DNA of 64,000 nucleotides, from assembly GCA_024404115.1 (NCBI GenBank), contig JAKSQM010000003.1, positions 1 to 64,000 of the forward strand, in the 5' to 3' direction. The DNA comes from Clostridia bacterium. GTDB lineage: Bacteria > Bacillota > Clostridia > Oscillospirales > Acutalibacteraceae. Numbering within the stretch: position 1 is the first letter of the stretch; every line of letters begins with the position of its first letter. The notes beneath the pieces are model-generated. The model was not told the DNA's origin. It saw nothing but the letters and a program-made list of their open reading frames with translations, and ran no database searches. A program made the translations under genes and the position numbers. This document shows, piece after piece, positions 11,110-34,554 of the stretch.

Positions 11110-14100
11110 ATGACTTTAGGCAAGCGTATTCTCAGTGTGCTTTTGGCTATGCTCATGGTTTTCTCTGTTTTACAGATGGGCGTTAGCGCTTTAAACATAG
11201 CTAATGGCGAAAACACTGATGGTACAATGACGATGGTTGATAACGGCGAAGGCAGATACATTTTGCCCGAGGCAACTGTTACAGCAACACCAACCATCCG
11301 TGTTGCTACAAAGAGAGCCGGTTACGGCGATTTCGTTGGCGGTTCAACAATCGTTAAAGCAACACCCTCTGGTGTACCTGCAATAACAGGTAATTACACC
11401 AAAGAAGCATATTCAGGCGAAAGCCCTGAATGGCCTACTGTTACTTTTGAGTGCGACCTTCCCCTTACTACTGATTCGGATAAGGCAAGCGTTCAGCTTA
11501 ACTGTAGCAGCATCTCAGGTCTTACCTATGAAGTCAGCAACCCCTCAAACAATAAGTGGGTTTGGACTATCACTGGCGGTACAATCGCAGCTGGTAACTA
11601 CGCTGATTTCACAGTAAGCTTCAATTACACACATACTGATAAACTTACTGGTAAGACAGAAACAAAAGCATACAAGGCATATGGCAGCTCATATGTTGAC
11701 ATTATTGCTCAGCCCGCTGGTGCTTATGTTCATTCCGAGAGAAAAAATGCATTTCATAGTAATACATACAATGAAATGGTTTACCGTATCCTTGGTAAAA
11801 ACACAAAGGGCAGCTACTATGAAACTGGCACAGATGTAGGTGAAGAAAACAAGGAAAAGAATGGCAGCTCTTATTTCTCTCATGGTTACTATGACTTCCA
11901 GTTAGCAGATGAGTTTGGCTGGAGCACCACAGCAGCTGCTTTCCCTCAGGGCGGTATGGTGCTTCTTCGCGCCCTCGGCGAGGGTAACATTTACTTCAAT
12001 ACAGGTATTGACAGACAGCGTCCTGTATCATCAACTTATATTGATATTTCAAAGGGTAAAGCTCTTGATGACGAGAGTATTAACCTTCGTTATTCAGCAT
12101 TTAACCAGGATGACGCAAGCGGTCATCATCATGACCATGATGGCGATTATTTAGACCAGATTAGCGGTATCAGAGTATTCCCTGGTGAAGTTGCTTGGGG
12201 TAGCGACACACCCAACATCACAACAGCAGAGAACGAAATTAACTTCGGTCTTAGTGCAGATGCTGCACTTCCTTTCCATAATAAGAGCACTTACAACACA
12301 AGCTCACCTTATGCTATTACAAATAGTGAGGAGCCTGGCAGAGTATATGGTCTTAATATTCCATTCACTGGCACAGCATATGCAAACTCTAAAGATATGA
12401 AGACTCTTGATAACGGCAACAAGTATATCGCATATACATTTAAGAACTGTGTATCAGCAAGATATTATTATAAAACTGATGATCGTTGCTCAGACAGCCA
12501 TACAGCAGTTAACCTTCGCTTCTATCTTTACAACAAAGCTCCTTTAAGAGGTGCTATTGAAGAAGCACTTGGTTCAGCTTCTCATATTCCACAGAATCCT
12601 TCATTCATTGATCCTCAGATCGGTCTTACTCCTCAGCAGTGGTATTATGACAACACAAACGGTTGCTGGGATAAATACTATTCAGCTCTCCAGACAGCTT
12701 TGCGTGTAAATGCTTGTTATATTACTGACCAGAATACAATCAACGCAGCAGCTGATGCTCTTGACGCAGCAGTTGCAGGCCTTGTTGTTAAAGGTGCTGA
12801 CTATTCATTAGCAGACGCAGCATACAAGCGTATTGCAAACCTTACACCTGCTAACTACACAGCAAGCTCATGGGCAGCTGTTGGTAAGGCATGGCGTGCA
12901 ATCGGTGTCAACGATTCAGAAAGAGATCTTACTGTTTTCTATCAGCCATACCTTAACAAGCTCATCGCAGATTTCAACACAGCAATTGATAACCTTGAGC
13001 TTGAAGATGCAGACTTCACTCTTGTTGACAGAGCAGAAGAAAAAGTTCCCGATGATCTTTCAGTTTACACAGATGAAACTGTAGCAGCTCTTCAGCAGCT
13101 TATTACTACTGCAGACAGCGACGCTTTCCGTGCAAAGAAGATCACAGAACAGGATTACATCGACAGCTTTGCTTATGCAATTGAAGATGCAATTATTGCT
13201 CTCCAGTACAAGGATGCTGACTATTCACAGGTTGATGCTCTTATCGCAGAGTACAACAGCACTTATGCTCCTAAAAAGGATACTTATACAGAGGAAACAT
13301 TCAACGCTTATAAAGCAGCTGTTTTATCAGTAATGCGTGGTCTTAAACTTGACAAACAGTCATTAGTTGATGATATGGCTGATAAGATCAGCACCGCACG
13401 TGATAACCTTGAGTTTAAGGAAGCTGATTACACAGCAGTTGAAGCAGCTATTGATGCAGCAGCTATGCTTGACAGCAAGCTTTACACAACAGCTTCATGG
13501 AAAGCACTTCAGGACGCAATCAACGGCGTTCAGTATGGTCTTACAGTTGATAAGCAGTCAACAGTTGACGGTTATGCTGCAAATATCAACGCAAAGATTA
13601 AGGCTCTTATATTCGCAGACGGCGATTACAGTGCAGTTCAGGAACAGGTTGCAAGATACAATGCTCTTGATAAGTCTTGGTATGAAGCAGCTGGTATCAG
13701 CAATGTTCAGTCAGTTATCAACGGCATTACTTACGGTCTCAAGAAAGATAAGCAGAGTCAGATCGATACATACGCTGCAAACCTCAAGGCAGCTATCGAC
13801 GCTCTCGTTCTTAAACCAGCTAACTACACAGAAGCAGATAAGCAGGTAGCAAGATTTGAATCTCTTGCATCAAATAAGAACCTCTACACATCAGCTTCTT
13901 ATTCAGCAGCTCTTGCTGCAAGCAACGTTATCAAGCAGAATCATGACCTCACAATCGACAAGCAGTCAACAGTTGACGGTTATGCAAACGACCTCAAGGC
14001 AGCTATTGATAACCTTAAATTCAAACCCGGTGATTACTCAGATGTTAACAGCGCAGTAAATACCGCAAACGAGATTATTGCAAAGGCTGACGCTTACTCA

Positions 14101-16140
14101 GCAGCATACAACAATAATCCTTATTACACACCTGCAACATTCAACGCTCTTAAATCAGCAGTTAACGCAGTTGTTTATGATCTTACAGTTGATAAGCAGT
14201 CTCAGATCGACGGCTACGCATCAGCTATCAACAAGGCAATTAACAACCTTGATAACAATGTTGCAGACTACACAGCAGTTAACGCAGCAAAGGCAAGTGT
14301 TCCCGCAGACCTTGACAGCGGCAGATATGTTGCTTCTAAGGTTGCAGCAGTTCACAACGCAGTTAACTCAGCAACAGCTGGTCTTCTTACAGACGAACAG
14401 GATATCGTTGACGGATTCGCAACATCAATCAATGCAGCAGTTGCAGCTCTTGCATTGAACGGCGCTGATTACACAAAGGTTACAGCAGCAATCAACTCTA
14501 AGCCTGCTGATCTTACTCCTTACACATCAGCATCAGTTGCAAACCTTAACAATAAGATCAACGCAGTTGTTTATGGCCTTTTAATCGATGAGCAGAGCAA
14601 GGTAGATGCTTTCGCAGCAGATATCGTTAAGGCTATCAAAGACCTTGAACTTGCTCTTGCAAGCTATGCAAAGGTTGAAGCAGCTAAGGCAGCAGCAAAT
14701 GCAGCTCTTAATGCAAGCGAAGCTCAGTATTACACAGCTGAAAGCAAGCAGGCAGTTAAGGACGCTATTGACGCAGTTGTTTATGATCTTCCCGCAGCAC
14801 AGCAGTCACAGGTTGACGGCTATGCAAAGGCAATCGACAGTGCTGTAGCAGCTCTTAAATATAACGGACTTAACACAGCTCCTTATGAAGCAGCAGTTAA
14901 GACATTCAACGGCATTGATAAGAGCATCTACACAGACGATTCTGTTAAGGCAGTTGAAGACGCTATCGCAGCAGCAGACGCTATCGTTAAGAAAGCAGAC
15001 GCAAGCGTTAAGGATCAGGCAGCTCTTGATTCAGCAGTAGAAGCTATCAACGCAGCAATTGACGCACTTACACTTAAAGGCGCTGATTACACAGATGTTG
15101 ATAAGGCAATCGACCTTGCAAACGCTTACGCAGTTAATAAAGAACTCTATACAAATTATGACGCAGTTGAGGCTGCTGTAGCAGCAGTTATCAGAGATCT
15201 TGCAATTGACAAGCAGACAGATGTTGACGCAATGGCTAAGGCTATTAACGATGCAATCGCTGCTCTTCAGTTCAAAGATATCGACAAAACTGGTTATGAA
15301 GCAACAAAGAGAACTATCCCCGCTGACCTTTCAATCTACACAGCAGATTCAGTTAAGGCAGTTAACGATCAGATTAAAGCTATCGACGAGTTCCTCGGCG
15401 CAGAAGTTGACATCAACGACCAGCCCGACCTCGACGAAATGGTAGCAGAGCTCAAAGTTAAGATTGACGAGCTTGCAAAGATTCCTGCAGATTACTCAGA
15501 ACTCAAGAAAGCTCTTGCAGATTTTGAGAGCCTCAACGAAGACGATTACTCAAACTTCTCAGAGAAGAAAGCAGTTTACAACGCAGCTAAAGACTGGATG
15601 TCAAACGGCACTGTAGATTTTGAGAATCAGGACGAAGTTGACGCTTGGACAGACGCAGTTAAGAAAGCTATGGCAGAGCTCGAAGCAGCATCAGCACCTG
15701 AAGCATACTTCGTAGCAAAAGCTGGCAGCACAACAATCATCAATGATGGTTCTAACTTCATCACTGGCCTCAAGACAGCTCTTACTCTTAAAGAGCTCAA
15801 GGAACAGTTCCTTGCTTATGACGGAGTTGAAGTTACATTCACAAAGGCAAGCAGATCAGCAAGATATTATGGTACAGGCTCAACAGTTAAGGTAACATAC
15901 GCTGACGGTAAGGTTGAAACATACACAATCGTTATCTATGGTGATCTTGACGGAAACGGCATCATTGACGTATCTGATACAGCAACAGCTCAGCTTGCAG
16001 CAGTTGGTTCACCTCTTACAGCAGCTCAGAGATTTGCAGCTAATGTTGACGGCGTATCCCGTGTAACAGAAAGCGACGCAGTTGTTATCTCAGCAGCAGC
16101 AGCAGGTAAAGAACTTAATCAGGTTGACCCCACAATGTAA
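11110..16140 (+). CDS. Large secreted protein with about 14 FIVAR-like modules and a dockerin-like C terminus
   Basis: A 1676-residue extracellular protein. Residues 1-27 form a Sec signal peptide (VSA-LN cleavage likely). Residues about 28-500 are a non-repetitive beta-rich region with a His-rich patch (HHHDHDGD). From about residue 563 to 1520 there are roughly 14 alanine-rich modules of about 68 residues. Each starts near ADY(S/T)-x-V and carries YT-x2-(S/T), DKQS-x-(V/I)D and AI-x-AL blocks, resembling FIVAR helical-bundle repeats. A small beta domain follows (about 1525-1610). The end (1611-1676) is a dockerin-like pair: loop 1, D1612-x-DGNG-x2-D-x2-D1623, is complete; loop 2 (N1645-D1656) is degenerate. 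A role in surface display, glycan binding or scaffold attachment is inferred. No catalytic domain is recognised. Confidence 0.75.
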   Translation: MTLGKRILSVLLAMLMVFSVLQMGVSALNIANGENTDGTMTMVDNGEGRYILPEATVTATPTIRVATKRAGYGDFVGGSTIVKATPSGVPAITGNYTKEAYSGESPEWPTVTFECDLPLTTDSDKASVQLNCSSISGLTYEVSNPSNNKWVWTITGGTIAAGNYADFTVSFNYTHTDKLTGKTETKAYKAYGSSYVDIIAQPAGAYVHSERKNAFHSNTYNEMVYRILGKNTKGSYYETGTDVGEENKEKNGSSYFSHGYYDFQLADEFGWSTTAAAFPQGGMVLLRALGEGNIYFNTGIDRQRPVSSTYIDISKGKALDDESINLRYSAFNQDDASGHHHDHDGDYLDQISGIRVFPGEVAWGSDTPNITTAENEINFGLSADAALPFHNKSTYNTSSPYAITNSEEPGRVYGLNIPFTGTAYANSKDMKTLDNGNKYIAYTFKNCVSARYYYKTDDRCSDSHTAVNLRFYLYNKAPLRGAIEEALGSASHIPQNPSFIDPQIGLTPQQWYYDNTNGCWDKYYSALQTALRVNACYITDQNTINAAADALDAAVAGLVVKGADYSLADAAYKRIANLTPANYTASSWAAVGKAWRAIGVNDSERDLTVFYQPYLNKLIADFNTAIDNLELEDADFTLVDRAEEKVPDDLSVYTDETVAALQQLITTADSDAFRAKKITEQDYIDSFAYAIEDAIIALQYKDADYSQVDALIAEYNSTYAPKKDTYTEETFNAYKAAVLSVMRGLKLDKQSLVDDMADKISTARDNLEFKEADYTAVEAAIDAAAMLDSKLYTTASWKALQDAINGVQYGLTVDKQSTVDGYAANINAKIKALIFADGDYSAVQEQVARYNALDKSWYEAAGISNVQSVINGITYGLKKDKQSQIDTYAANLKAAIDALVLKPANYTEADKQVARFESLASNKNLYTSASYSAALAASNVIKQNHDLTIDKQSTVDGYANDLKAAIDNLKFKPGDYSDVNSAVNTANEIIAKADAYSAAYNNNPYYTPATFNALKSAVNAVVYDLTVDKQSQIDGYASAINKAINNLDNNVADYTAVNAAKASVPADLDSGRYVASKVAAVHNAVNSATAGLLTDEQDIVDGFATSINAAVAALALNGADYTKVTAAINSKPADLTPYTSASVANLNNKINAVVYGLLIDEQSKVDAFAADIVKAIKDLELALASYAKVEAAKAAANAALNASEAQYYTAESKQAVKDAIDAVVYDLPAAQQSQVDGYAKAIDSAVAALKYNGLNTAPYEAAVKTFNGIDKSIYTDDSVKAVEDAIAAADAIVKKADASVKDQAALDSAVEAINAAIDALTLKGADYTDVDKAIDLANAYAVNKELYTNYDAVEAAVAAVIRDLAIDKQTDVDAMAKAINDAIAALQFKDIDKTGYEATKRTIPADLSIYTADSVKAVNDQIKAIDEFLGAEVDINDQPDLDEMVAELKVKIDELAKIPADYSELKKALADFESLNEDDYSNFSEKKAVYNAAKDWMSNGTVDFENQDEVDAWTDAVKKAMAELEAASAPEAYFVAKAGSTTIINDGSNFITGLKTALTLKELKEQFLAYDGVEVTFTKASRSARYYGTGSTVKVTYADGKVETYTIVIYGDLDGNGIIDVSDTATAQLAAVGSPLTAAQRFAANVDGVSRVTESDAVVISAAAAGKELNQVDPTM
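12796..15680 (+). repeat. Tandem coding repeats of about 205 bp (14 FIVAR-like modules)
   Basis: About fourteen units, each recognisable by ADY/ANY/GDY at its start and a DKQS-type block before its end. The units have diverged well beyond identity at DNA level, so the array is old and held by protein-level selection rather than recent expansion. Confidence 0.75.
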
Positions 16141-16474: not shown

Positions 16475-17794
16475 ATGAATTTGTATGAAAAGCTCCTTAG
16501 CGGAGAAGAGAAGCTCTCTTTAGTTGGTTTGGGATATGTAGGAATGCCTATTGCAGTTGCATTCTCAAAGGTATTGAATGTAATTGGTTTTGACCTTAAT
16601 TCAAAGAAAATTGATTTATACAAAAGTGGAATTGACCCCACAAAAGAAATCGGCGATGAAGCAATTTCAAAGTGCACAGTAGATTTCACATCAGACCCTG
16701 AAAAACTTAAAGAGGCAAAATTTCACATCGTTGCCGTTCCCACCCCTGTTAATGATGACCATTCGCCTGACCTTACACCTGTTGAGGGTGCAAGCAGAAT
16801 CCTTGGTCAGAATCTGACAAAGGGCAGCGTTGTAGTTTTTGAATCAACTGTTTATCCAGGGGTAACCGAAGAGGTATGCGTTCCCATTCTTGAAAAAGAA
16901 TCAGGACTTAAATGCGGAGTTGATTTCAAAATAGGCTATTCACCAGAAAGAATTAATCCCGGCGATAAAGTTCACCGCCTTGAAACTATCACAAAAATCG
17001 TTTCAGGCATGGATGAAGAAACACTCGATACAGTTGCAAAGGTTTATTCGCTTGTTGTTAAAGCAGGCGTTCACCGAGCAGAGTCAATTAAGGTTGCAGA
17101 AGCAGCCAAGGTTATAGAAAACAGTCAGCGTGATATTAACATCGCTTTTATGAATGAGCTTTCTATAATCTTTAATAAAATGGGTATTGATACAAAGTCA
17201 GTCCTTGAAGCCGCAGGAACAAAATGGAATTTCCTTAAATTTGCTCCCGGTCTTGTTGGCGGTCATTGTATCGGCGTTGACCCTTATTATCTGACATATA
17301 AAGCGGAAAAAATCGGCTATCTCAGTCAGGTTATCCTTGCAGGCAGAAGAATAAATGATGGCATGGGCAAATATGTTGCAGAGAATCTTGTGAAAAATCT
17401 CATTAAAGCAGGCTGCCACGTTAAGGGCGCAAAAGTCGCTCTTCTCGGCTTCACTTTTAAAGAGAATTGCCCCGATACTCGCAACACAAGAGTTATTGAT
17501 ATTTGCACAGAGCTTAGCGAATACGGTATTATTCCCGTTATTTCTGACCCCGTTGCAGATGCAGCTGAAGCAGAACGAGAATATGGCGTTGAGTTTGTTG
17601 ATATAAATGAAATAAAAGATGTTGACGCAGTTATTCTTGCCGTTGCGCATAATGAGTTTGCATCACTTTCAATGGAAGATTTCAACCGTATGTTTAAGAA
17701 AGCTCCCAATGAAGAGAAAGTTTTATTTGACATTAAAGGATTACTTGACAGAAAGACATATGAGCAGGCCGGTTACAATTACTGGAGATTGTGA
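16475..17794 (+). CDS. UDP-N-acetylhexosamine 6-dehydrogenase (TviB/WbpA/WecC family)
   Basis: A 439-residue NAD-dependent enzyme that oxidises C6 of a UDP-N-acetylhexosamine to a uronic acid. The Rossmann motif is GLGYVGMP (about residues 19-26). The family motif PTPVNDDHSPDLTPV is present. The catalytic Cys265 lies in GGHCIGVDPYYLT. Overall it looks closest to the TviB type that uses UDP-GlcNAc. The 4-epimerase at 38529 would complete a route to UDP-GalNAcA. It is the first structural gene of the exopolysaccharide operon, preceded by AGAAGGA. Confidence 0.85.
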   Translation: MNLYEKLLSGEEKLSLVGLGYVGMPIAVAFSKVLNVIGFDLNSKKIDLYKSGIDPTKEIGDEAISKCTVDFTSDPEKLKEAKFHIVAVPTPVNDDHSPDLTPVEGASRILGQNLTKGSVVVFESTVYPGVTEEVCVPILEKESGLKCGVDFKIGYSPERINPGDKVHRLETITKIVSGMDEETLDTVAKVYSLVVKAGVHRAESIKVAEAAKVIENSQRDINIAFMNELSIIFNKMGIDTKSVLEAAGTKWNFLKFAPGLVGGHCIGVDPYYLTYKAEKIGYLSQVILAGRRINDGMGKYVAENLVKNLIKAGCHVKGAKVALLGFTFKENCPDTRNTRVIDICTELSEYGIIPVISDPVADAAEAEREYGVEFVDINEIKDVDAVILAVAHNEFASLSMEDFNRMFKKAPNEEKVLFDIKGLLDRKTYEQAGYNYWRL

Positions 17795-20519: not shown

Positions 20520-21416
20520 ATGAACAAACCCTTAATTACAGTTTTTACTCCGACTTTTAATAGAAAAAATCTCCTTATAACCCTTTACAAAAGCCTTTGT
20601 GCACAGATTAACCGCAACTTCATCTGGCTTATTATAGATGATGGCTCGTCTGACGGCACAGAGGCTCTTGTGAAAGGATGGCAGAAAGAAAACGTCATTC
20701 GTATCAACTATTTTTATAAAGCGAATGGCGGTATGCACACGGCTCATAATGCGGCATACAGGTTAATTGAAACAGAGCTGAATGTGTGTATTGATTCTGA
20801 TGATTCAATGCCACCCGATGCAATTGAAAAAATCACTTCTTTCTGGAATTCTTTTGAAAGAAAAAATGAAGTTGCAGGCATAATGGCACTTGATTTTGAT
20901 ATAAACAAAAAGCATATTATCGGCGGCGAGCTCCCCGAAACAGGCACAGTAATTTCCTGTCAGGATATTGTAAAAAAATATCAGGCTTACGGCGATAAAA
21001 AGTTTGTTTACAGAACAGATGTTATCAACTCTGTAAATGAATACCCCGAATATGAGGGCGAGAGAATTGTGCCGCTGAGCTACAAATATTGGCTGATAGA
21101 CAGAAAAATGCCCATTGTAACTTTTAACGAAATTATCTGCCTTGTGGATTATCAGGAGAATGGCTCAACAAACACAATTAAAAAGCAATATTTCAGAAGT
21201 CCAAAGGGATTTTTAATTGCAAAAAAAGAGCAAATGATTTATCCGAAAATCTTAAAAAGTCAGATGAAATCCGCTATACATTATGTTTTTTTCAGCAAGC
21301 TTTCTGGGGAGAAAAATTATATTAAAAATTCACCTAAAAAGCTTCTTACTCTTTTGGCAACACCTGCGGGACTTTTATACTATAAAAAAATGATTAAAAG
21401 AAAGACCGATTTATGA
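20520..21416 (+). CDS. Glycosyltransferase family 2
   Basis: A 298-residue GT-A enzyme. The N-terminal ITVFTPTFNRKNLL and IIDDGSSDGT motifs bind the nucleotide sugar. The metal-binding DxD-type motif is CIDSDDSMP near residue 82. It probably adds a sugar with inversion at the cytosolic membrane face. AAGGAG precedes the start at slightly long spacing. It overlaps the EpsG-type gene by 4 nt. Confidence 0.85.
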   Translation: MNKPLITVFTPTFNRKNLLITLYKSLCAQINRNFIWLIIDDGSSDGTEALVKGWQKENVIRINYFYKANGGMHTAHNAAYRLIETELNVCIDSDDSMPPDAIEKITSFWNSFERKNEVAGIMALDFDINKKHIIGGELPETGTVISCQDIVKKYQAYGDKKFVYRTDVINSVNEYPEYEGERIVPLSYKYWLIDRKMPIVTFNEIICLVDYQENGSTNTIKKQYFRSPKGFLIAKKEQMIYPKILKSQMKSAIHYVFFSKLSGEKNYIKNSPKKLLTLLATPAGLLYYKKMIKRKTDL

Positions 21417-29825: not shown

Positions 29826-31289
29826 ATGAAAGAATTTAAGTTATCAAACATAAATTTATATACCCTTGCAAGCGACTTTTTAAGGAATGCAGTCGTTTAT
29901 GTTCTTGCGTTTATGATTGGTGTGCTGGGTGTAAAGGTTTATTCTGATGCTATTTATGTTCCTGAATATACAAGCACAATGACCGTGTCTGTCAGCACAG
30001 AAACAAAATACAGCCACTTTTACGCAGACCTTGTAAACACAATTGAGGTTGCAGAAGTGCTTAAAAATGTTTTTGACAGTGAGGTTCTTAAAATAAAGGT
30101 TGAAGAAGAAACAGGCAAGCCTTTCACCGCCAAAATCACATCTTCAACAATTTCAGAAACAAACCTTATCACAATTTCTGTTACAGATACTTCACCTAAA
30201 AAGGCATACGATACACTTGTTGCCGTTTATAAAAATTATGATAAGGTTTTCAATAACAGCATTTTTGAAAACACAAGAACAAATATAATGAGCGCACCCA
30301 CTGTTCCCGTTGCCCCCAGCAATGCGAAGCTTGACAGTGGATTCGGCAAAAAGTTAGGCCTTGTTCTTGCAGCTCTTACAATGATGCTCGTTCTGTTCCT
30401 TTCTTTTATCAGAGATACTGTTAAGCAGGCGGCAGATGTTGAGAATTTCATTGACGGCGAGCTTCTGGCTGTTGTTTATCACGATTCAATTAAAAAGAAA
30501 AGAAAAATCAATACATCCAGCAGAACGGACAAGCTTCTTGTTTCAAACCCCAATATCAGCTACGGCTTTGTGGAATCAATTAAAAGACTGGCTATCAAGG
30601 TGCTTTATAAGCTCAAGGGCAAGCAGGCAAAAACTGTTATGTTCACAAGCTATGACCAGCATGAGGGTAAATCAACAATTTCATCATCGGTTGCAATTCA
30701 GCTTGCAAAAGAGGGCGCAAACGTTTTGCTTATTGACGCCGATTTAAGAAAGCCCACTGTTCCAACTCTTTTCACTGAAATGGAGTTTGAAAAAGAAAAG
30801 AGCCTTTACGCTTTTCTTAAAGGTGAAGCAGAGGCGGAGGAGATTATTCAGCGCAACACAATTGATAATATTGATGTTGCTTCATCACCAAAGGGTCATA
30901 TGCAGACAGCCGAGGTGCTTCATAAGGGCAGACTGAAAGAATTGCTTGACTATGCAAGGGATAAATACGATGTTATCGTTCTTGATACTCCGCCTGTTTC
31001 AATGGTTGCAGATACAGAGCAGATAGCAGACCTTGTTGACCTTTCTGTTCTTGTTGTGATACAGGATAGAATTACTATCCCCGAAATCAACGAAACAATT
31101 GATATGCTTGAGGCGGCAAATTCAGAGTTTTACGGCTGTGTGCTTAATAATGTTAAAACTCTTGGCGGCTTCATTACAAAAGACCACAATGTTAATCTTG
31201 CAGAAAAATACGGCTATGGCAAAAGCTACGGTTACGGCTATGGCTATGGATATGGCTACGGTTACGGCTACGGAAACGATAAAAAATAA
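29826..31289 (+). CDS. Fused Wzz chain-length regulator and BY tyrosine kinase (first copy)
   Basis: A 487-residue protein. Residues about 15-205 form a Wzz region with two membrane segments and an extracellular loop. The kinase domain has Walker A (YDQHEGKST, Lys282), Walker A' [10 protein letters not shown] (Asp304, Asp306, Arg308) and Walker B VIVLDTPP. The C-terminal tail carries ten tyrosines in YG repeats for autophosphorylation. Such kinases cycle with CpsB and set polymer length. In many Firmicutes the Wzz and kinase parts are separate (CpsC/CpsD); here they are fused. Confidence 0.85.
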
Positions 31290-31303: not shown

Positions 31304-33148
31304 ATGGCAGAAAACGATAAAAAAACTGAATATTCCTCAAAAGAAAGCACTTCATCAAAAATAGCCGATGCCTTTGAATTTAACCTGCTTATTTTTGCAG
31401 GGGATTTCCTCAGCTACCTTAAAAAGCTCTGGCATTTTGTGATTATTGCGGCGGTTATTGCGGCATCTGTATCTTTTGTATTTGCCAAAAAGAATTTTGT
31501 GCCCGAATATAAATCGTCAGTGTCATTCGCTGTTTCGGCACTTAACGCCAGCAGCTCAGAAATAAACGGTGCCAGCGAATATTCCACAACATTCGGCGGT
31601 GCTACTCTTTCGGCTCAGCTTGGCAACACATTCCAGTATGTTGTGCAGAGCGATATGATGGCAGAGGTTATCAAGGCAGATTTAGGTAAGCCTTTCATTA
31701 ACGGAATGATAAGAACTAAGGTTGTTGAATCAACCAATATTTTTAAAATAGCTGTTTACAGTAATAACGCACAGGATGCTTATGATATTGTAAATTCAAT
31801 TGTTAAAAATTATCCCCGTGTTGCAGATTATGTTATCGGCGATACAGAGATGGAAATTTATGTTAAGCCAAAGCTTCCGCAGGAGCCTGAAAACGCAATG
31901 TCATGGCGCAGAAAGACAGTTTTCGGTGCTGGCATCGGTGCTGTTGCGGCACTTGGCTTCATTGCAGTTCTTGCTCTTATGAGAAGAACTATCAAAAATA
32001 AAAAAGACATCAAGCTTAAATTCAACAAGGATGCCCTTGTGGAAATTCCGTATGTTGACATTAAAAAGCGCAGTAAGGGCAAGAGAGTTTCACTTGTTAT
32101 TTCTCCAAGGCTTCCTGCCTTTGCAGAGGCTTACAGAACCCTTAAAAAGCGAATAATAGATAAACCCGAAAATAAAATTATTGCCACCACCAGCACAATG
32201 GCAGGCGAGGGTAAAACAACAGTTGCGTTTAACCTTGCATATACCCTTTCAATGAACGGCATCAATGTTGCTCTTGTGGATTTTGACTTCCAGAAAAACA
32301 CAGTGGCTTCGTTTATCAATGATCAGGATATTGTACCAGGTATGACCGACATTGATTTTGACCTTGAAAGACTTGACAGCATTGCATATGTGAACGAAAC
32401 AGACAAGTATCTTACAATTTACCCTGCGGGCAATATAAAACGTTCTGTTTCAGTTGATAAATTAAGTGATATTTTAAAGTTCATTTCAGATAAGTATGAT
32501 TATATAATAGTAGACATGCCGCCATGCGGTCTTGTTGCCGAAGCTGGCATTATGACATCGCTGGCAGACGAAACACTTTTCGTTATCAGAATGGACTATG
32601 CACGCACAAGAAAAATCAGAAATTCAATAAATTATATGAATCTCTGCAACACCAATTTTGAAATTGTCTTTAACGGTGTTATGGCAGGTAAGCTTTCAGG
32701 CAGCGGAAAATCATACAGCAGCGGTTACGCCAGCAAATATGGCTATCACCGCTATGGCTACGGCAAAAAGTATGGTTACGGCAAGAGCTATGGCAAAGGT
32801 TATGGCAAAGGCTACGGCAAGGGCTACGGCTACGGTAAAGGCTATGGCTATGGCGAGGGTTATGGCTACGGCTACGGCAGTGGTTACGGCAGCGGTTATG
32901 GCTATGGATACGGTTACGGCTACGGCAAAGGCTATGGTGAGGGCTACGGATACGGCTATGGAAGCGGTTACGGAAGTGGCTACGGAAGTGGATATGGCAG
33001 TGGTTACGGTTATGGATATGGCTACGGTCAGAAGCATAAGAAAAAGAAAAGCTCCAAACATTCAAAACACTCATCAAAGTCAACTAAGTCAAAAAAGACA
33101 TTAACAGGTTCTGAATCTGTTGGAGGTTCCGAATCTGCTGAAAGTTAA
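31304..33148 (+). CDS. Fused Wzz and BY kinase (second copy) with a very long Tyr-Gly tail
   Basis: A 614-residue protein. The Wzz region (about 25-230) has two membrane segments. The kinase has Walker A MAGEGKTT (Lys304), Walker B IIVDMPP, and an altered Walker A', LVDFDFQKN, where the usual Arg of DxDxR is Gln. Residues 471-574 hold about 35 tyrosines in [12 protein letters not shown] and YGEG units. A Lys/His/Ser tail of about 40 residues follows. It is much longer than ordinary BY-kinase tyrosine clusters. AGGAGGT precedes the ATG 14 nt after the first kinase. Signalling output, activity and partner are unknown. Confidence 0.85.
32712..33030 (+). repeat. Low-complexity coding repeat for the Tyr-Gly tail
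   Basis: The repeat encodes alternating Tyr and Gly with Lys, Ser or Glu spacers. Synonymous codons are mixed (TAT/TAC, GGT/GGC/GGA), so it is not a fresh microsatellite expansion. The protein sequence appears to be what is kept. Confidence 0.75.
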
Positions 33149-33168
33149 ATTTTGCGGAGGTTATGAAT

Positions 33169-34554
33169 ATGAAGAAAATGAAAAGAAGAACATTGGAAAA
33201 TGTAATGATTACAGTGTTTATGGTGCTGCAGGGTCTTGCATTTTATTTCATCTGGAAGTTTTACTATAACCATGAGCTTAAAAATGAGTACCTCTTTAAA
33301 GGTAACGCTCTTATGGTTGTGGTTTATGTTGCAATTGCATACTTCATATACAAATCTCTTGACGGACTCAGAGTAAGCGTAAACAGTATGTATGCGTTGG
33401 CGGTTTCGCATTTTATATCGGCTGTTATAACGGATATGCTGTTCTACCTCATTCTGATAATCATCTTCAGAGGTATCACAGGTGTTGGCCCTCTTGCAAG
33501 ACTTCTTCTTATAAACTGGATTATTTCAGCATTGTGGGTTTATATCTGCAAGCGTACTATGCAGGCAAAAACTGGCAGACATTGCATCCTCTTTTATATT
33601 GATGATGACCCCGAATACCTCAAGCAGAAATTTGAGGATAGAAAAGACCAGTTCACAATTGTTAAAATGGTTAAGGTTACAAGCCTTGAAAATATAGAAA
33701 ATGAGTTTACAGACGGCATAGACAGCGCAGTTATTGCCTATATGCCAAGTGATTACAGAAATGAAATTGTAAAAATCTGCTTCCGTAAGGACATCGAGGT
33801 TATTGTTACACCAAAGGTTTCAGATGTTCTTATCCGTGGCGCAGAGGAGCTTAATATTCTTGACGGCCCTCTTTTTGTTATTGAAACAGCAAACTCAAAA
33901 TCTTTTCAGATTGCAGTTAAGCGTGCGTTTGATGTTTGCTTCTCAGCCTTTGCGCTTCTTATTGCAAGCCCTATTATGGCAGCAACTGCCCTTGCAATTA
34001 AATTAGAAGACCGTGGTCCTGTTTTTTATAAGCAGAAAAGATGCACAATTGACGGCAAAGAATTTGAAATTTATAAATTCAGAAGCATGATTGTTAATGC
34101 AGAGAAAAACAACAAGGCTGTTCTTGCATCAAAGAATGACAGCCGAATCACAAAAGTGGGCAAGTTTATCAGAGCTACAAGAATAGACGAAATTCCTCAG
34201 CTTATCAATATTATGAAGGGCGATATGTCTGTTGTTGGCCCCCGCCCTGAAAGAAAGGCACTTATTGACCAGTATTCTGATATTGTTGAAGCATTCCCTT
34301 ACAGAATGAAGGTTAAGGCTGGCCTTACAGGCTATGCTCAGCTTATGGGCAAATACAATTCAAATCCTTATAACAAGCTTCTTTTTGACCTTATGTATGT
34401 TCAGAAGTTCTCACTTCTTCTTGATTTAAGGCTTATTCTTCTCACCCTTAAAATCGTGTTTATGAAAGAGAGCACAGAGGGTGTTGACGAGGAATTTGAA
34501 AGATTTATAGAAAGCTTTAACAGAACTAAAGGAAAAAACACAGATGAGGAATAA
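33169..34554 (+). CDS. Priming polyprenyl-phosphate sugar-phosphate transferase (WbaP/EpsE-like)
   Basis: About 461 residues. N-terminal membrane segments (about residues 10-125) and a cytoplasmic CoA-binding-like region precede the catalytic bacterial sugar-transferase domain (about 245-440). That domain shows RAFDVCFSAFALL, DRGPVFYKQKR, KFRSM, IDEIPQLINI and SVVGPRPE. It starts repeat-unit assembly by transferring a sugar-1-phosphate to undecaprenyl phosphate. The ATG at 33169 is chosen because GGAGG lies 8 nt upstream; the ATG at 33163 is too close. Confidence 0.85.
   Translation: MKKMKRRTLENVMITVFMVLQGLAFYFIWKFYYNHELKNEYLFKGNALMVVVYVAIAYFIYKSLDGLRVSVNSMYALAVSHFISAVITDMLFYLILIIIFRGITGVGPLARLLLINWIISALWVYICKRTMQAKTGRHCILFYIDDDPEYLKQKFEDRKDQFTIVKMVKVTSLENIENEFTDGIDSAVIAYMPSDYRNEIVKICFRKDIEVIVTPKVSDVLIRGAEELNILDGPLFVIETANSKSFQIAVKRAFDVCFSAFALLIASPIMAATALAIKLEDRGPVFYKQKRCTIDGKEFEIYKFRSMIVNAEKNNKAVLASKNDSRITKVGKFIRATRIDEIPQLINIMKGDMSVVGPRPERKALIDQYSDIVEAFPYRMKVKAGLTGYAQLMGKYNSNPYNKLLFDLMYVQKFSLLLDLRLILLTLKIVFMKESTEGVDEEFERFIESFNRTKGKNTDEE

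Follow-up and report, generated by a model that had tools for sequence, protein, structure and literature searches.

One published definition of a BY-kinase includes a C-terminal tyrosine cluster of 10-20 residues (PMC5260027), and the manner in which phosphorylation of such a tail controls polymerisation has been argued from Wzc, that is, from about five target tyrosines in a single protein (PMC11986026). Cryo-EM studies of Wzc described a tyrosine pocket that takes the tyrosine located two places before the target tyrosine, an arrangement that served as the basis of a proposed ratchet, and further described a glutamate (E675) that hydrogen-bonds with the pocket tyrosine and was proposed to be incompatible with phosphotyrosine (PMC11986026; PMC8285477). 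Couples consisting of an active and an inactive BY-kinase, namely CapB2/CapB1 and PtkA/PtkB, have also been reported, in which the tyrosine cluster of CapB2 contains four tyrosines and for which the authors proposed that the pseudokinase acts as a helper (PMC3795738). In addition, a hetero-octamer of PtkA and SalA has been modelled (PMC5035731). Tyrosine tails, tyrosine-glycine repeats, inactive partners and a modelled mixed ring are, accordingly, already in print (PMC11986026; PMC4574921; PMC3795738; PMC12004946; PMC5035731).

The locus described here encodes two adjacent proteins of this general type (K1 and K2), within a stretch of DNA of 64 kb (hereafter ‘the window’). Like Wzc, a PCP-2a protein of E. 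coli, they display two membrane segments, a BY-kinase-type domain, and a C-terminal tyrosine tail with spacings of two, and are encoded in a polysaccharide locus; unlike Wzc, which comprises one chain type with Glu675 and about five phosphorylated tail tyrosines, they are two paralogues, and K2 has a lysine at the pocket position and 35 tail tyrosines, half of whose spacings are four (PMC11986026; PMC8285477). The CpsD protein of Streptococcus pneumoniae resembles K2 in its tyrosine-glycine tail and its association with a CpsB-type phosphatase, but is a chain separate from CpsC and carries three phosphorylated tyrosines (PMC4574921). The tyrosines of CpsD follow a period of three, which is not the period of K2 and is that of many upstream (‘U’) members of the pairs described below. 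The CapB1/CapB2 proteins of Staphylococcus aureus and the PtkB/PtkA proteins of Bacillus subtilis again represent two BY-kinase paralogues, one of them inactive; unlike K1 and K2, these kinases are separate from their membrane modulator, the CapB2 cluster has its four tyrosines, and the paralogues are not known to form one mixed ring (PMC3795738).

Two further comparisons are relevant. The BY pseudokinase EcpK, which has kept the kinase fold but lost its catalytic residues, is also paired with a PCP-2 protein; it is without phosphorylated tyrosines and is thought to act independently of phosphorylation, whereas K2 has its long tyrosine tail and keeps Walker A (PMC12004946). In the modelled PtkA-SalA ring, some of the kinase subunits give way to a related P-loop protein. 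This corresponds to the arrangement that K2 may adopt, except that SalA is no membrane co-polymerase, and the mixed ring is a model in that case and a proposal in this one (PMC5035731). Among 19 open-licence papers that contain the string YGYGYG, none is by its title a BY-kinase paper, and none of the best matches in the open-licence literature has a title describing paired or hyper-tyrosine tails; similarly, no description of a fused U/D pair, of a split in tail register or of a pocket reversal was found among the best matches in that literature.

Organisation of the locus

The window contains a polysaccharide locus, harboring genes for an EpsG-family protein (position 21413), for glycosyl transfer and for ABC proteins, together with the phosphatase, Ig-like, kinase and sugar transferase genes collected in Table 1. 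The phosphatase matches the NCBIfam Cps4B model at 139 bits, below the cut-off of 400 for that model, and the sugar transferase matches TIGR03025 at 312.6 bits, above the cut-off of 295.55. Upstream of these genes are found an open reading frame of 1676 residues (11110-16140) with no Pfam match at E 0.001, and a gene of the UDP-glucose/GDP-mannose dehydrogenase family (16475-17794); a UDP-glucose dehydrogenase of E. coli has been reported to be tyrosine-phosphorylated (PMC2516531).

The source assembly is a draft that is 83.8% complete, with 2.43 Mb distributed over 44 contigs, and the contig that contains the window encodes two more kinases of the K1/K2 type, at 193 and 221 kb. Beyond the window, kinases of the same genome at L074:7222-8694 and L075:11547-13286 carry 12 and 24 tail tyrosines and belong to a third branch of the kinase tree.

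Table 1. Coordinates of the genes and protein features discussed in the text (positions are those of the window)
Feature	Position	Strand	Basis or remark
CpsB/CapC-type PHP phosphatase, 252 aa	28229..28987	+	Pfam PF19567, E 1.2e-57
Ig-like protein, one N-terminal hydrophobic segment, 274 aa	28998..29822	+	Pfam PF16403, E 2.7e-08; hydropathy
K1, upstream kinase (U), 487 aa	29826..31289	+	NCBIfam TIGR01007; DADLR; pocket Glu
K1 tail, 10 Tyr	31203..31286	+	8 spacings of two, 1 of four
K2, downstream kinase-like protein (D), 614 aa, ATG start	31304..33148	+	Pfam AAA_31, E 8.1e-15; TIGR01007, 82.5 bits
K2 hydrophobic segment 1, aa 42-60, likely membrane helix	31427..31483	+	Kyte-Doolittle 2.32
K2 hydrophobic segment 2, aa 206-224, likely membrane helix	31919..31975	+	Kyte-Doolittle 2.32
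K2 Walker A, Lys present, aa 297-306	32192..32221	+	Motif reading
K2 Walker A' DFDFQ, aa 326-330, usual Arg replaced by Gln	32279..32293	+	Motif reading
K2 Walker B IIVDMPP, aa 401-407 (fits hhhDxxP)	32504..32524	+	Motif reading
K2 Lys437, aligned position of Wzc Glu675 (tyrosine pocket)	32612..32614	+	Aligns with Glu of CapB1, CapB2 and BceF
K2 Tyr-Gly tail, aa 471-574, 35 Tyr	32714..33025	+	Residue count
K2 strict two-residue register, aa 493-576	32780..33031	+	Gly at 41/42 alternate places
K2 tail, Lys/His/Ser-rich basic stretch, aa 576-598	33029..33097	+	Sequence
Bacterial sugar transferase (initiating phosphoglycosyltransferase type), gene after K2	33163..34554	+	Pfam PF02397, E 5.2e-63

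In both K1 and K2, a single chain combines a P-loop domain of the kinase type with a pair of hydrophobic segments, and thus has the layout of PCP-2a proteins (two membrane segments flanking an outer domain, with the kinase domain in the same chain); the kinase domain and tail of K2 are probably cytoplasmic. The first-pass annotation had read K2 as a protein of the Wzz/BY-kinase type, which its Pfam and NCBIfam matches bear out, although only K1 (136.9 bits) exceeds the TIGR01007 autokinase cut-off of 108.05, and K2 falls below it. The Walker A' motif (DxDxR) is intact in K1 but not in K2, where glutamine replaces the arginine, as it also does in the nearest K2 orthologue (G150). K2 may nevertheless be active, since the Walker A lysine and both Walker A' aspartates are retained, and it possesses the C-terminal tyrosine cluster of BY-kinases, though one that is 104 residues long.

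The tyrosine-glycine tail of K2

The reading frame of K2 and the approximately 35 tyrosines that had been assigned to residues 471-574, followed by a Lys/His/Ser tail, proved exact: this stretch contains 35 tyrosines and 45 glycines, every tyrosine beyond residue 461 falls within it, and the last is residue 574. Within the strict two-residue register, the places that alternate with glycine are occupied by tyrosine (27), lysine (6), serine (6), glutamate (2) and glutamine (1), and the Lys/His/Ser stretch is followed by a Ser/Glu terminus (residues 599-614). The 34 tyrosine spacings consist of 16 of two, 17 of four and one of three, such that 33 are even, as compared to a fraction of 0.40 expected from composition, and none of 1000 shuffles reached that value. 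The tail of S. pneumoniae CpsD is a (YGX)4 repeat, and this period of three is represented by one of the 34 spacings in K2 and is displayed by many U tails. All nine spacings in the tail of K1 are even, and K1 therefore departs from the usual U pattern.

Tyrosine and glycine codons are mixed throughout the K2 tail (TAC 19 and TAT 16; GGC 27, GGT 16 and GGA 9), and copy-to-copy comparison of the glycine register yields 0.024 differences per site at codon positions 1 and 2, versus 0.59 at position 3. Because the copies differ almost solely at third positions, the pattern has been held at the protein level while its codons drifted, as the first-pass annotation had concluded from the mixed synonymous codons; fresh slippage as a complete explanation is ruled out for K2 by the same codon pattern, yet is true in part for G150, whose tail was partly expanded recently. 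Exact matches to TAYGGNTAYGGNTAYGGN occur 14 times in the source genome, all of them in BY-kinase tails (13 in the K1/K2 pair and one in the kinase at C23:193 kb), and the reversed control pattern has two matches in that genome, with positions not given. Long open reading frames in other frames overlie the tail (32658-33104 on the forward strand, 32679-33083 and 32711-33061 on the reverse strand); these are expected from a stop-poor repeat, and display no sign of being genes.

Tyrosine number among related kinases

The discovery set, made up of 60 loci and the window, contains 97 kinases of at least 320 residues and 35 pairs in which the two genes adjoin on one strand. From 37 held-out loci came 72 kinases and 34 pairs (none of them from L249, L295 or L306), with kinases shorter than 320 residues dropped from both sets. 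The loci were chosen as best matches to K2, and the resulting pair counts are therefore not prevalences. Of the held-out downstream (‘D’) bodies, 11 of 34 are at least 70% identical to some discovery D body (up to 96%), and the tail of one held-out D protein (L305) is cut short by the end of its contig.

Across the 169 kinases of both sets the median number of tail tyrosines is 11; one fifth of the tails contain at least 20, and six exceed the 35 of K2 (36, 39, 45, 45, 66 and 77). The 69 D proteins range from 2 to 77, and tails of 0-10 tyrosines occupy the equivalent position in operons of this type. A wider scan of 80 loci, mostly from other groups, demonstrated that tyrosine-glycine tails recur, reaching 15-18 tyrosines in several loci of Bacteroidota and as many as 37 in those of Clostridia. 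Long tyrosine-glycine tails are, in short, a family trait that is not unique to K2, and the statement that known BY-kinases have far fewer tail tyrosines is correct for those that have been described and does not extend to the family as a whole. Several of the full-length matches to K2 come from Clostridia or Oscillospiraceae metagenome assemblies, and a plasmid collection returned 470 weak matches, none of which covers 80% of K2. Stand-alone CpsD-like kinases in Clostridia assemblies (L163, L176 and L188) carry 26-37 tail tyrosines in GGYGGYG units, and the D proteins with 77 and 66 tyrosines (L304:1186-4326 and L054:5698-8652) have period-three YGN/YGD units, followed by long extensions containing Pro, Glu and Thr.

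The absence of the tail from close relatives had been named as evidence against a functional role; the closest orthologue and the other examined relatives in fact keep tyrosine-rich tails. That orthologue, G150 (locus L105, 8723-10594), is 61% identical to K2 in its body and has a tail of 167 residues with 39 tyrosines. Identical aligned residues share the same codon in 33 of 97 cases in the tail (where alignment of the repeats is loose) versus 138 of 279 in the body. The G150 tail also contains a unit of 13 residues, present five times with nearly identical codons, which represents a fresh expansion of part of that tail and indicates that such tails grow by tandem duplication. Tyrosine number tracks the distance between kinase bodies (Mantel r 0.39 for D, with 0 of 5000 permutations reaching that value, and 0.30 for U, with 12 of 5000; L073 excluded).

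An ancient pair of paralogues

In a tree of the 97 discovery bodies, U and D proteins fall in two old branches, with 34 of 35 in each and L073 as the exception; K2 is the downstream member of an ancient paralogue pair. The U and D distances mirror one another closely (r 0.93 over the 34 pairs without L073; 0 of 2000 permutations), although mirrored trees can also arise from joint inheritance without contact. The gene for the Ig-like protein precedes U in 31 of 35 discovery pairs and 32 of 34 held-out pairs (63 of 69 loci), mostly directly adjoining it, and three of the four discovery pairs that are missing it begin no more than 330 bases from a contig end; its product is likely an extra subunit. 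A CpsB gene accompanies the pair, in the same orientation, at 24 of the 35 discovery loci, 23 times upstream and once downstream.

The members of a pair differ in several respects. D has more tail tyrosines than U in 29 of 35 discovery and 28 of 34 held-out pairs, while tail length does not differ between them (p 0.41, 35 pairs) and the tyrosine numbers of partners are not correlated (Spearman 0.14, p 0.43). Discovery D tails are predominantly even in register (30 even, 2 with a period of three, 3 ties) and discovery U tails more often have a period of three (15, versus 7 even, 4 ties and 9 too short to assign), and in the held-out pairs 22 D tails are even, 7 have a period of three, 3 are ties and 2 are too short, as against 4 even, 18 with a period of three, 4 ties and 8 too short among the U tails. 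Four residues before the Walker A lysine, at the place of Wzc Pro536, a glutamate is found in 66 of 69 U proteins and a proline in 48 of 69 D proteins, K2 itself having alanine. The Fisher and Wilcoxon tests applied to these comparisons treat pairs as independent, which they are not, and since U and D form two old branches, much of the contrast between them may reflect a few old changes that have been kept.

Across the 69 pairs, the Walker A' arginine is kept in 31 U and 55 D proteins, and lost from 38 U and 14 D proteins. As U loses it more often, its loss from D is an unusual feature of the branch to which the window belongs. Reciprocal loss between partners was considered and found not to be significant (p 0.25 for 35 pairs, p 0.14 for 69), so that D could be called ‘the pseudokinase’ at most within the window’s own branch.

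Charge reversal at the tyrosine pocket

The position equivalent to Wzc Glu675, with numbering counted from the alignment of K1 with Wzc, is occupied by glutamate in K1 and by Lys437 in K2, the side chain of which would point toward the pocket. Glutamate is not universal there among BY-kinases, since VpsO has valine. Lysine or arginine is found at this place in 44 of 69 D proteins and one of 69 U proteins; among the 35 discovery pairs, 20 D proteins and a single U protein have a basic pocket, and 3 D proteins and 19 U proteins an acidic one, and in the 34 held-out pairs, which were collected after the rule had been formed, the pocket is basic in 24 D and no U and acidic in no D and 14 U. The 23 held-out pairs with D bodies less than 70% identical to any discovery D behave similarly (basic in 16 D and no U; acidic in 10 U and no D), while outside the K1/K2 family the held-out rule is weaker, D being basic in 2 of 6 pairs. 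The pocket column could not be safely aligned in the Bacteroidota loci.

This reversal, like the even tyrosine register, the ancient pair and the missing Walker A' arginine of K2, goes beyond the first-pass annotation. Because lysine or arginine mostly replaces the glutamate by which Wzc has been proposed to exclude phosphotyrosine, the D pocket could hold phosphorylated tails. One could speculate, with little confidence, that D proteins of the K2 type are phosphotyrosine-reading subunits, with U acting as the writer, D as both reader and tail carrier, CpsB as the eraser, and tyrosine number as the setting of the device.

A proposed mechanism and its alternatives

The reading that is favored here, with a probability of roughly 45%, is that K1 and K2 are two kinase-type subunits of one co-polymerase similar to Wzc or CapAB, in which K1 would serve as the main kinase, K2 as a diverged partner with a tail that accepts phosphates in many steps, and CpsB as the means of resetting it. 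The kinase-type fold, and a locus that includes a phosphatase, a sugar transferase and an EpsG-family protein, are consistent with that assignment. The same reading draws on the even register, the constraint on the tail sequence, the 39 tyrosines kept in G150, the phylogenetic signal in tyrosine number, the mirrored U and D trees, the surplus of tyrosines in D, the lost arginine and low TIGR01007 score of K2, and the precedents of active and inactive couples and of the modelled PtkA-SalA ring. The K2 tail is a putative phosphorylation substrate on the basis of its homology to known tails, and the fact that relatives keep both the pair and similar tails suggests that it represents an enlarged form of such a tail rather than an accident.

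In the proposed scheme K1, with its intact motifs, would be the main writer, and the long tail of K2 the main acceptor of phosphates transferred from K1 within a mixed oligomer. The placement of tyrosine (or lysine, serine or glutamate) at every second residue, with glycine between, would permit an active site to work along the tail in steps of two residues, in the manner of the YxY ratchet proposed for Wzc, with up to 35 phosphorylation events in place of four or five; CpsB, which is likely the eraser of tail phosphates, would then strip them. The number of tyrosines might thereby set the amount of phosphorylation needed before the oligomer lets go, as a threshold or a timer. The match to the ratchet is partial, because the 17 spacings of four put lysine, serine or glutamate where the ratchet wants tyrosine, and a strict two-step register is evidently not needed for long tails, since the D tails with 66 and 77 tyrosines have a period of three.

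Among the alternatives, K2 might instead be an ordinary, self-contained BY-kinase that builds a ring of K2 alone and autophosphorylates its tail, in which only the first few tyrosines matter and the remaining repeats are tolerated slippage of a GC-rich six-base repeat. The retained Walker A lysine and Walker A' aspartates, the recent 13-residue expansion in G150 and the wide range of tyrosine number among D proteins are all compatible with that possibility. It is nonetheless considered unlikely, though by no means negligible, given that the glycine-register codons of K2 vary 25-fold less at their first two positions than at the third, that close relatives are similar in tyrosine number, which tracks phylogeny, and that the Walker A' arginine is replaced by glutamine in both the window and G150.

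A cross-docking arrangement, in which each paralogue inserts its tails into the active sites of the other (D into U, and U into D) around an alternating ring, would explain the basic and acidic contrast of D and U pockets and tails. It accords with pocket charge, which is more positive in D than in U in 61 of the 69 pairs, the same in 7 and reversed in 1, and with tail charge, which is likewise more positive in D in 30 of the 35 discovery pairs. The corresponding difference in held-out tails is weak (22 of 34 pairs versus 11, p 0.044), and within pairs an acidic U pocket accompanies a non-basic D pocket (p 6e-5, a value confounded by phylogeny), which is not what paired docking sites would simply lead one to expect. 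These two observations weaken a simple electrostatic form of cross-docking, which is retained as a rival but appears improbable.

Finally, that the tail is a low-complexity sticker, clustering the complex through tyrosine-tyrosine contacts or cross-beta stacking until phosphorylation dissolves it, is very doubtful: GYGYGYG peptides do self-assemble into amyloid-like fibrils (PMC10510724), and the tail is rich in glycine and tyrosine with lysine, but a plain sticker requires neither an even register nor differing U and D periods, operons of this type also carry tails of 0 to 10 tyrosines at the equivalent position, no BY-kinase paper on a condensate or fibril theme was found among the best-matching open-licence literature, and nothing computed here favors the condensate scaffold that had been suggested from the sequence, possible though it is.

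Implications

If D pockets do act as readers, phosphorylation would keep or re-form the oligomer rather than dissolve it, and a bacterial writer-reader-eraser phosphotyrosine circuit would be contained inside one co-polymerase; if the pocket reversal corresponds to phosphotyrosine binding, then this branch would be an exception to the usual rule, by which the ring is dissolved through phosphorylation. The Clostridia-type families comprise a natural series, with 0 to 77 tail tyrosines, two registers, paired paralogues and opposite pocket charge, and that series makes both the ratchet and the idea that tyrosine number sets the response testable by comparison.
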